Virus record (IMG/VR): IMGVR_UViG_3300030116_004199
Location: 1 to 20,191 of that record
DNA from: a virus
Length of the DNA: 20,191 nt
Reading direction: 5' to 3' (one strand)
Below, one piece after another: positions 5,312 to 15,373 of this stretch. The notes under the pieces were generated by a model, which was given only the letters and a program-made list of their open reading frames with translations, had not been told where the DNA came from and searched no databases. Positions within the stretch are counted from its first letter, which is position 1. Every line of letters starts with the position of its first letter. A program made the translations under genes and the position numbers.

Positions 5312-5379
5312 ACTATGATCCTTTTTTTTTGTTTAGATGAAAAAAGGAGCAAATATGGCTTTTTTTTCTTCAAAAAATA

Positions 5380-5485
5380 TTTTCTCGTCAATAGAACCTC
5401 TTGTTTCTAGGGGCTCATAACCCGGAGGTCATCGGTTCAAATCCGGTCCCCGCTACAGACGAGAAAACCCAATTTTCAGACGAGA
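5380..5485. repeat. Inverted repeats bracketing the attP core
   Basis: TTTTCTCGTC (5380-5389) and its exact reverse complement GACGAGAAAA (5458-5467) flank the tRNA-like core. A further direct copy, CAGACGAGA, is at 5456-5464 and again at 5477-5485. They could be core-type integrase sites or binding sites for a directionality factor. The right-hand copies overlap the terminator hairpin. Confidence 0.5.
5411..5455 (+). other. attP: attP core: 3' part of an initiator-type tRNA-Met
   Basis: Bases 5411-5455 read as a tRNA from the anticodon stem to the discriminator base: GGG, loop CTCATAA with CAT anticodon, CCCGG, variable loop AGGTC, T-arm ATCGG-TTCAAAT-CCGGT, acceptor CCCCGCT, then A. The three G:C pairs next to the anticodon loop are the hallmark of initiator tRNA. 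No D-arm or 5' acceptor strand (it would need to read AGCGGGG) exists upstream, so this is not a complete gene. Phages that integrate at tRNA genes carry such a 3' fragment in attP so that the host gene is rebuilt. The integrase at 12818-13969 is the natural partner. Confidence 0.8.
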
Positions 5486-5499
5486 GTTGGGTTTTTTTT
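5464..5499 (+). terminator. Rho-independent terminator after the lysis genes
   Basis: AAAACCCAA (5464-5472) pairs perfectly with TTGGGTTTT (5487-5495) around a 14-base loop and runs into eight T residues (5492-5499). It would end plus-strand late transcription coming from the endolysin gene. It is placed directly after the attP core. Confidence 0.8.
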
Positions 5500-5632
5500 A
5501 TGTGAAAAAGCCATTTTAAAATACTCCCATATATACCAATATATATCCATATAATATAAAAATTTTGGAGCAAATATGGCACTAACTAATTTTATAGTTT
5601 GGAGCACATATGGCAATTGCCCGGAGGATTTA

Positions 5633-6181
5633 TTAGTTCTTATCACTAGCATAGTTAAAAGTTGTTCTAATTTCAACCTCTCTGGCAAGTAAATTAAGAC
5701 GTGCATAAAACATAGCATTTACATCATGACCCTGTTTATGTATATATGTAGTGCTCATTACAAGTGGAATTACTGGTGTCCATGATGGATCAAAAAATTT
5801 AAATAATCCAGTAATGTTCATGTTCAGTTTGCGATATTTTTTTCTTTCTGGTTTTCTCATAATATCAAAAATAGGATGTTTTTTTGGTGCAAACCACTTA
5901 CCAATAGACCATGCATTTTCTAATTCATCTATTGAATAACCTAAAAATTTGACACACTTTTGCTTGTATTCTACAGATATCATTTTAAGATCAAACAAAT
6001 TTTTATTCAAACCCGGTCTAAATTTCATGGTACATATAGAATGATATTTATTACCAGCTAATATTTCTTTATTAACACTAGCAATTGGTTTTGGTATGTT
6101 GTTTAGTTCTGATGCAAGACTAGCTTTATCATTTTCTAATTTTACGATTCTATCAATTAACGATTGTATCTGTTCTCCCAT
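5633..6181 (-). CDS. HTH-less paralogue of the phage repressor (PAS-like domain)
   Basis: The 182-residue protein starts with a short coiled coil (IQSLIDRIVKLENDKASLASEL) and continues into a domain that matches the C-terminal domain of the adjacent repressor. Both have LGY(S/T)xxE(L/I), then HP 22 residues later, then GLFK 23 residues after that, and then a similar strand-rich end. The LGYSIDEL motif resembles the start of PAS domains (LGYSxEEL). The helix-turn-helix region is missing. It could mix with the repressor through the shared coiled coil and PAS-like domain and so lower repression, or sense a ligand. It has a strong ribosome binding site (AAGGGGG) and lies 22 bases downstream of the repressor in the same operon. 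Function is inferred. Confidence 0.7.
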   Translation of the reverse strand: MGEQIQSLIDRIVKLENDKASLASELNNIPKPIASVNKEILAGNKYHSICTMKFRPGLNKNLFDLKMISVEYKQKCVKFLGYSIDELENAWSIGKWFAPKKHPIFDIMRKPERKKYRKLNMNITGLFKFFDPSWTPVIPLVMSTTYIHKQGHDVNAMFYARLNLLAREVEIRTTFNYASDKN

Positions 6182-6203
6182 ATCAGCCCCCTTATATAAT
6201 ATA

Positions 6204-6956
6204 TTATTTTTGGAATCTTACCTTTGTAGCAACTATTTTATCTTTTAAGTTTATTGTGTTTCTTGTGTAAGCGGTCACTAGCGTACCGTTTTTATTTATA
6301 AATTTTATTTCATATGGTAATGTGAACATACCATTTTTTTGTTTAAATAACCCATATAAGGTGTTTTGTAGATTGTTTATTGTAGCAACAGAACTAGAGT
6401 CAATTATTTTAAAAAAAGGGTGATCATTGTTATAATATTCAACACCTATGTCTACAATATCATCTATTTCTGCTTTTGTATAACCAAGATGTTTGTTTAT
6501 AGCCTTAATAGTATTACCGTCAATGCTTTCTACCGCTCTATACATTTTAAAAGATTGCATCCTTATTCTTGTCATACATGAAAAATCATGTTGCCAAGTG
6601 CTTTCATGCATATTAATAGACTCTTGAGCACGTTTATATTCATTTAATTCAGATGTCAATTCTTCTATTTTGTCTAACAATGGTTTTACAACATTATCAT
6701 TTTTATCAGTTTTGTCAGAAATTTCTACGTTATCTCTGGAAATCTGGTTTTCAATTAATTCCATAGCAAAACGTCTAACGTGTTTTTCTGGAACTTTACC
6801 ATCTCTAGACCATGCACTAATTCTTGTTTTAGTAAGTCCTAAATAATCAGCAACAGCTTTTTTTGTTGGTAAGTTTTTTTCTAACATAATAGTGTGTAAA
6901 AATTCATTTGGCGACATTTTTGAAAATTTCTGAAACAATGTTTCTAGTTGGTTCAT
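6204..6956 (-). CDS. Lysogeny repressor: helix-turn-helix plus PAS-like domain
   Basis: I place the start at ATG 6956 (MNQLETLFQK) because AAGGG sits five bases upstream; an in-frame ATG at 6980 would add eight residues but has no such site. From 6956 the product has 250 residues. About 30-60 form a CI-type helix-turn-helix (KAVADYLGLTKTRISAWSRDGKVPEKHV), 90-115 a coiled-coil linker, and 120-250 a PAS-like domain with HLGYTKAEI, DHPFF and GLFK. No LexA/S24 protease Ser-Lys dyad is evident, so control by RecA-stimulated self-cleavage looks unlikely. It faces an excisionase-like gene across an operator-rich region, the typical place of a lysogeny repressor. Confidence 0.8.
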   Translation of the reverse strand: MNQLETLFQKFSKMSPNEFLHTIMLEKNLPTKKAVADYLGLTKTRISAWSRDGKVPEKHVRRFAMELIENQISRDNVEISDKTDKNDNVVKPLLDKIEELTSELNEYKRAQESINMHESTWQHDFSCMTRIRMQSFKMYRAVESIDGNTIKAINKHLGYTKAEIDDIVDIGVEYYNNDHPFFKIIDSSSVATINNLQNTLYGLFKQKNGMFTLPYEIKFINKNGTLVTAYTRNTINLKDKIVATKVRFQK

Positions 6957-6980
6957 AACATCCCTTTTGTTTTGTTGCAT

Positions 6981-7163
6981 CTATTTTAACACACTTTAGT
7001 TTTATTAACAAGCACTAATAGTAAATATTATAGTATATTTATACATTTTATTTGATTTTATAACACTTTTAAATTGTGTTTTTTATTTGGAATTTAAGAC
7101 ACATTATAGTATTTTAGTGTAAGTTATATTATACAAACAACACTTTAGTAGGAGTTGCGGGAT
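6981..7163. promoter_or_regulatory. Divergent promoter/operator region of the lysogeny switch
   Basis: This AT-rich spacer separates the repressor from the early genes. A minus-strand -10 element, TATAAT, lies at 7027-7032, suitably placed for the repressor; I see no strong -35. ACAC/GTGT half-sites cluster here: the identical ACACTTTAGT at 6991-7000 and 7140-7149, GCACTAATAGT at 7012-7022, the dyad AACAC(N9)GTGTT at 7062-7080, and ACAC(N14)GTGT at 7099-7120. These are the best operator candidates for the repressor. A plus-strand early promoter must also be here but no clear consensus stands out. Confidence 0.6.
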
Positions 7164-7340
7164 ATGGATCAAGAAAAAAAATATTACAGCATTAATGAGG
7201 TTTCTAAAATTTTAAGCGTTTCAATGGGAACCGTTTATAATTACATAGGAGAAGGTTATTTAAAAGCCATAAAACTAGGCAAAAAAACTATAAGAATTTC
7301 AAAAAAGAATTTAGATCAATTTACAAAAGATAAATCGTGA
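7164..7340 (+). CDS. Excisionase/Cro-like helix-turn-helix protein (HTH_17 type)
   Basis: ATG 7164 is preceded by GGAG nine bases upstream and is preferred to a TTG at 7155. The 58-residue product is a single MerR/excisionase-type winged-helix DNA-binding domain: YYSINEVSKILSVSMGTVYNYIGEGYLKAIKLGKKTIRISKKNLDQF, with the helix-turn-helix at about residues 9-30 and the wing at 35-48. Proteins of this family act as recombination directionality factors (Xis) or small regulators. As first gene of the early operon opposite the repressor it may act like Cro, as excisionase for the attP/integrase system, or as both. Its stop codon forms part of the first stem of a predicted RNA structure. Confidence 0.8.
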   Translation: MDQEKKYYSINEVSKILSVSMGTVYNYIGEGYLKAIKLGKKTIRISKKNLDQFTKDKS

Positions 7341-15164: not shown

Positions 15165-15373
15165 TTTCTCCTGTTTTGTTATTTAATAGTGTTGTTATCA
15201 ACAACTAAAAGTTACTTTAGTTACTATCTAAATGTCAAGTTTTATTTTACTTTAAGACATTTTTAGTGTTTTTATAGAGAATAAAAAAACTTGTTAGTAA
15301 CTACATTTGGTGTTGTTTTTGTTGTTTTATCTAATAAAACTATAACCGTGATAACACATTTTAGGAGCGTAGT
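15165..15373. promoter_or_regulatory. Divergent control region of integrase and late operons
   Basis: This AT-rich spacer lies between genes transcribed outward on both strands. It contains a dyad GTTGTT-ATC-AACAAC (15191-15205) and two copies of the palindromic nonamer TAGTTACTA/TAGTAACTA (15218-15226 and 15295-15303). TTTTAGTGT at 15261-15269 is identical to a half-site in the repressor's own operator region (7112-7120). The downstream end has AGGAG for terS. Clear -35/-10 pairs are not obvious. The dyads are the best candidates for control of both operons. Confidence 0.5.

Follow-up and report, generated by a model that had tools for sequence, protein, structure and literature searches.

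A putative phage repressor with an exchangeable coil-PAS module and an HTH-less homologue encoded beside it

The window (the whole 20,191-nucleotide stretch of viral DNA analysed here) contains a gene, P0002, that combines an N-terminal helix-turn-helix (HTH) domain, a coiled coil and a C-terminal domain of predicted PAS fold, and directly downstream of it a second gene, P0001, whose product repeats the coil and the PAS domain. Judging by the sequences of related phages, the PAS part of such proteins is exchangeable like a cassette, under a constant HTH and constant putative operators, and we regard this exchange as a stronger finding than the pairing with an HTH-less protein on which the original prediction was centred. 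The explanation that best covers the data as a whole, a temperate immunity locus with a PAS repressor, an exchangeable cassette and P0001 as a modulator, is given a probability of about 0.5.

The gene pair and its shared C-terminal domain

Both open reading frames proposed from the sequence are confirmed on the minus strand, with the following anatomy.

6204-6956, minus strand: P0002, putative repressor of 250 residues, with the HTH at about 3-72, the coiled coil at 87-114 and the PAS domain at 122-250
6207-6593, minus strand: PAS domain of P0002 (residues about 122-250), from the structure model and its fold matches
6182-6203, minus strand: intergenic gap of 22 bp between P0002 and P0001, containing the P0001 Shine-Dalgarno sequence AAGGGGG
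5633-6181, minus strand: P0001, HTH-less protein of 182 residues, with the coil at 2-28 and the PAS domain at 46-180

For P0002, the ATG at 6956 has a better Shine-Dalgarno sequence (AAGGGA-N4-ATG) than the in-frame upstream ATG at 6980. Both genes are read from one strand and have a ribosome-binding site of their own; the region of the pair yielded no terminator-like site, and by its layout the pair looks like one operon, in agreement with the common mRNA that had been suggested. An HTH is found in P0002 only, whereas P0001 consists of a coiled coil and a PAS domain and nothing else, as had also been predicted. The Pfam signal for an XRE/cI-type HTH is weak for P0002 alone (HTH_3, E 0.002) and strong for its relatives; residues 3-72 form five helices in the structure model, and the profile of the P0002 family matches solved XRE/cI-type HTH structures with E values down to 6e-8. 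Each protein has a coil of four heptads, with a/d positions running from I5 to I29 in P0001 and from V90 to I114 in P0002 (p about 0.015 each), and the spacing from coil to PAS is similar in the two.

The C-terminal domains of P0001 and P0002 are homologous. The motifs LGY, HP and GLFK start at residues 157, 179 and 202 of P0002 and at 80, 102 and 125 of P0001, giving in both proteins the identical spacings of 22 and 23 residues that the original prediction had pointed out. BLASTP aligns the two proteins with an E value of 6e-7, Smith-Waterman alignment of the coil-free C-terminal parts gives Z = 10.7 with a score reached in none of 5000 shuffles, and the E values in leave-one-out profile tests are 4e-14 for P0002 and 2e-14 for P0001. 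A merely superficial resemblance, arising from coiled coil and composition with no common fold, could be argued from the identity of just 26-27% between the two proteins, but it is already refuted by the coil-free Z score, the leave-one-out E values of about 1e-14 and the same predicted PAS fold in both, and is highly improbable barring experimental structures that differ.

The PAS domain is a common sensor fold. AlphaFold2 models built on six-row alignments have a mean pLDDT of 81.7 for P0001 and 74.7 for P0002, with values mostly of 75-94 in the PAS core, and after the coil both show the order bbaaaabbb (beta2-alpha4-beta3) with an antiparallel sheet, which is the PAS topology. The top PDB matches of each model in Foldseek are PAS domains (8px4, 6pps, 10jx), VIA-align 2 gives Z of about 10 to 3h9w and 8px4 with about 100 residues aligned, and entries of HIF-2a/ARNT occur among the fold matches. 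Structure prediction thus supports the PAS-like signature read from the sequence, whereas profile families do not recognise it: no Pfam PAS family matches P0001, P0002 or P0004 (E up to 10) or four other members (E up to 5), no family member has a sequence-level PAS match in PHROGs, and no sequence match to any solved PAS structure was found. The PAS assignment is therefore one of predicted fold, the sequences being too divergent for curated PAS models, and since those models give no match the PAS call made from the sequence was a good one. PHROG 3716, a family of unknown function, weakly matches residues 136-218 of P0002 (E 0.002-0.006), and no haem or flavin cofactor motif was recognised in the domain. 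The strongest viral structure match is A0A516M3Q0 (245 residues, E 9e-14). A PAS-like protein of 240 residues in Cellulophaga phage phi19:1, probably gp108 by protein length, lies near tail/lysis genes, has no Pfam match and is not a clear relative.

No peptidase family in Pfam matches P0002, and its C-terminal domain is modelled as PAS instead of an S24 peptidase, so that RecA-triggered self-cleavage is not expected. The domain is not a LexA-type peptidase, in line with the original prediction, which had argued against RecA-triggered cleavage. A PAS-type repressor without reliance on RecA self-cleavage is well supported as anatomy; as function we infer it.

The locus in the window and in related phages

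The window, an IMG/VR virus record, also encodes a terminase, a portal protein, an integrase, an exonuclease and a small xis-like HTH protein. P0002 is divergent from the early genes and lies near an att-like site and the excisionase-like gene.

5343-5615, plus strand: GGAGCA(A/C)ATATGGC three times (5343, 5564, 5598), candidate integrase arm sites
5410-5457, plus strand: 3' part of a tRNA(fMet-like), GGGGCTCATAACCC...CCCCGCTACA, candidate attP core by its sequence and similar 3' ends in relatives
6957-7163, no strand: divergent intergenic region separating P0002 from the xis-like gene; it contains four AACAC half-sites and is a candidate operator region
7062-7080, no strand: AACACTTTTAAATTGTGTT, a perfect AACAC-N9-GTGTT dyad (0 mismatches), candidate central operator
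7164-7340, plus strand: xis-like small HTH protein with PHROG excisionase/HTH matches, conserved in relatives and divergent from P0002
12818-13969, minus strand: tyrosine integrase (PHROG integrase, E 8e-28)
15165-15373, no strand: second divergent intergenic region, upstream of a small-terminase-like gene, with four AACAC half-sites (post hoc motif)

No whole tRNA was found in the window, only the 3' part at 5410-5457, and this tRNA(fMet)-like end together with the three nearby repeats looks like an attachment site. The direct repeats flank the tRNA fragment; the distance to the integrase gene exceeds 7 kb. AACAC half-sites number four in the 6957-7163 region against 0.8 expected (p 0.002) and four in 15165-15373 against 1.3 expected (p 0.02), an enrichment that is a lead only, because the motif was picked after the sequence had been seen; the second region is possibly a further target or control point of P0002.

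Direct search of viral contigs found no close relatives of P0001 or P0002, and relatives were obtained only through terminase synteny and a three-row profile. Two weak matches were rejected, one to Ochrobactrum phage ORM_20 (tblastn E 0.07), in which the annotated protein has none of the family motifs, and one to a plasmid, which covers residues 26-125 only. The terminase relatives are uncultured phages whose common gene order is lys - repressor (divergent) - xis - exo, and in several of them, as in the window, a tRNA-like 3' end lies in the stretch from lys to the repressor. At the syntenic locus, from lys-att to xis-exo, five relatives (G009, G042, G043, G046 and G047) carry an HTH-coil-PAS protein and four (G010, G017, G018 and G052) an HTH protein of 99-122 residues with no PAS, while G003, G006, G008, G013, G020 and G025 have no repressor-sized open reading frame between lys and xis. 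In G053 the module stands at another position, with an integrase directly after it and a truncated PAS. When 57 records including the window were scanned with a seven-row profile, the window gave two copies, each of the five syntenic relatives one, and G053 its broken copy; the weakest members by leave-one-out profile are G042 (E 7e-5) and G043 (E 5e-5). In view of homologues that occupy the syntenic position by the att-like tRNA fragment, with xis and exo running the other way, P0002 can with high probability be taken as the repressor, a function assigned here by synteny. No prophage or lysogen was found in bacterial genomes by searches with the C-terminal profile or the terminase.

The PAS domain is dispensable in this phage group, since the repressor is absent or HTH-only in many relatives. 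In G003, G006, G008, G020 and G013 (L048, L052, L054, L062 and L067) the repressor may be lost or located elsewhere; at least G003 and G013 keep the tRNA-like 3' end. As a separate observation, a peptide deformylase-like protein is encoded between xis and exo in several contigs (L048 17290-17847, L059 6523-7104, L052 2232-2792 and L062 13867-14487). The deformylase-like proteins of relatives have a C-terminal SEC-C-like zinc motif, PGRNDPC.CGS..K.KKCC, and what is left between xis and exo of G009 and G010 is just a short protein carrying this SEC-C-like tail.

Exchange of the coil-PAS module and the role of P0001

The clearest case of exchange is provided by the repressors of G042 (L133 16919-17698) and G043 (L153 7804-8583), which come from different metagenomes. 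Their proteins are 100% identical over residues 1-99, comprising HTH and coil, and 45% identical from residue 100 to the end, with a sharp break at the end of the coil. At the DNA level the two phages share about 92-100% identity in lys, xis and exo and 100% over the first 99 repressor codons and the upstream putative operator region, and this drops to about 50-80% over the PAS; within the PAS, the central part diverges most and the final strands are well preserved. In a second case, G009 and G053, the HTH parts are unrelated (17% identical) and the coil-PAS parts 85% identical. This case is weaker because both come from one metagenome and the G053 repressor (L074 5614-6307) has lost about 94 bp internally, which leaves its PAS truncated.

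P0001 spans just what is exchanged, coil plus PAS, with the coil in register. From its intact frame, its own ribosome-binding site and its well-modelled PAS we argue that it is probably a working protein. It is not a recent tandem duplicate of P0002, because its PAS is no closer to that of P0002 (Z 10.2) than to that of G009 (about 10-11), whereas the PAS domains of P0002 and G009 lie nearer one another (16.5); in a tree of the seven PAS domains the support around P0001 is 38 and its placement is not resolved. Mixed dimers with P0002 are for this reason less likely. That the pair is a switch design, as in the original prediction, is not supported, and a conserved linked pair fails: an HTH-less copy occurs in the window and in none of the 56 related records, although, the records being fragments, this absence can be relied on only for those that show the locus. 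The five syntenic PAS repressors stand alone, and relatives that regularly have only one of the two genes are what that prediction had named as speaking against it.

P0001 might be a left-over or by-product, namely an older coil-PAS module kept downstream with its own start codon after an HTH-coil-PAS gene or a C-terminal cassette had recombined in; such a protein may be neutral, decaying, or self-associating with no contact to P0002. We lean against this account while giving it real weight. It draws on the coil-PAS exchange seen in the phage group, on the identity of P0001 in extent with that module, on its presence in one record only and on a PAS as distant from that of P0002 as from that of G009, but it sits poorly with an intact frame of 182 codons, a strong Shine-Dalgarno sequence, a confident PAS with all family motifs and a 22-bp gap with no HTH remnant. 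The intact frame and family motifs after long divergence indicate that P0001 has been kept under selection somewhere.

PAS domains can form heterodimers. In the model originally put forward, which is equally tentative, P0001 would serve as a dedicated antirepressor and, by drawing P0002 into inactive mixed dimers, would tune or trigger induction. In its favour are the common operon, the homologous PAS domains with a similar coil-to-PAS spacing, the equal length of the four-heptad coils and the HIF-2a/ARNT entries among the fold matches; against it, P0001 and P0002 are only 26-27% identical, relatives have no such pair, and a cotranscribed P0001 would be present throughout lysogeny, so that it alone could tune induction and not trigger it. 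A built-in antirepressor is possible in the phage of the window; it is not a conserved design.

A further alternative, which we consider rather unlikely, is that the PAS is a dimerisation module with no ligand sensing, comparable to the C-terminal dimerisation domains of other repressors, and that its divergence reflects selection for dimer specificity against co-resident relatives. Divergent PAS domains on the same HTH and putative operators, as in G042 and G043, would be expected if heterologous subunits must not mix, and the four relatives with an HTH and a coil-like tail but no PAS indicate that PAS sensing is not essential; however, divergence in the middle of the PAS with conserved last strands fits changing ligands as well or better.

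The reading that we prefer treats this as a temperate-phage immunity locus, in which P0002 would be the lysogeny repressor, dimerising via coil and PAS. Its operators would be AACAC...GTGTT dyads in the region that separates it from the early operon with xis and exo. With a PAS in place of a RecA-dependent self-cleaving peptidase, induction would most likely proceed through a small molecule or protein partner that binds the PAS and reshapes the dimer or, by way of the coil, changes how the HTH domains are spaced. A swap of the coil-PAS cassette would then bring in a new signal, or put a new antirepressor within reach, with the operators unchanged. P0001, as a free-standing copy of the cassette from the same mRNA, would most likely modulate P0002 by coil/PAS contacts, either in mixed dimers or in competition for the signal. 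Of all this, the architecture, the homology, the synteny, the module exchange and, as a prediction, the PAS fold have been shown, whereas repressor function, operators, dependence on a signal and a role of P0001 are proposals. The bolder combination, that a temperate phage family re-aims its switch by coil-PAS cassette exchange over the same operators and that the free copy here forms mixed dimers, as a phage counterpart of inhibitory PAS partners devoid of DNA binding, is unlikely to hold in full.

Most studied prophages respond to DNA damage. If the proposal is correct, a built-in PAS would give lysogeny a direct link to conditions in the natural host, be it a metabolite, a gas, the redox state or a partner protein. 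Near-identical phages with the same HTH, putative operators and flanking genes but different PAS alleles make the question of the signal testable, and in the HTH-less copy there is a natural case for testing whether phages use dominant-negative repressor relatives.

Comparison with known systems

In the full-text literature searched, which leaves most subscription papers outside its coverage, we came across neither a phage repressor of the HTH-coil-PAS type nor an HTH-less partner of one. Phage regulators that combine PAS and HTH do exist, and VqmA-phage (PMC12802170) shows that a PAS-based phage switch is not unprecedented. VqmA-phage of VP882-like phages (PMC12802170, PMC8284805) is, as proposed for P0002, a phage DNA-binding PAS protein that controls lysis/lysogeny independently of DNA damage; it activates a separate antirepressor gene, qtip, and Qtip sequesters the cI repressor. 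In VqmA the PAS precedes the HTH and the protein is an activator of qtip/vqmR, whereas P0002 has the order HTH-coil-PAS, with the PAS at the C-terminus of the putative repressor itself. The same-strand neighbour of P0002 is P0001 and not a qtip-like smORF.

The architecture of P0002 also resembles that of the MmyB/MltR regulators (PMC3406030, PDB 3pxp), in which a PAS-like domain lies C-terminal to an XRE-type HTH. The HTH is reported to be conserved, and the less conserved PAS-like domain is thought to adapt to different inducers. SCO6676 of the same group is a PAS-like domain alone and in this resembles P0001, being likewise devoid of an HTH (PMC3406030). Unlike P0002, the MmyB/MltR proteins covered there are cellular, mainly from actinomycetes, with no phage immunity locus and no coiled coil described. 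P0002 is alike in architecture and gave no sequence match to the group, and 3pxp is absent among the fold matches listed. With repressors of the lambda cI/LexA-like type P0002 shares an N-terminal HTH, a C-terminal dimerisation domain, a divergent early operon and dyad operators (candidate ones in P0002), but their C-terminal domain is an S24 peptidase and that of P0002 a PAS.

Two further systems bear on the role proposed for P0001. In the TF-smORF prophage modules (PMC10432266) induction is controlled independently of the SOS response and a small partner inactivates the repressor, as proposed here; that partner is divergently transcribed and unlike the repressor, whereas P0001 is homologous to the C-terminal half of the repressor and lies in the repressor operon. 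In the Stl/dUTPase system (PMC10806181) antirepression comes about by disturbed dimerisation of the repressor, as would be the case for P0001, but the antirepressor of Stl is an unrelated phage enzyme, whereas P0001 is an HTH-less relative of the repressor.
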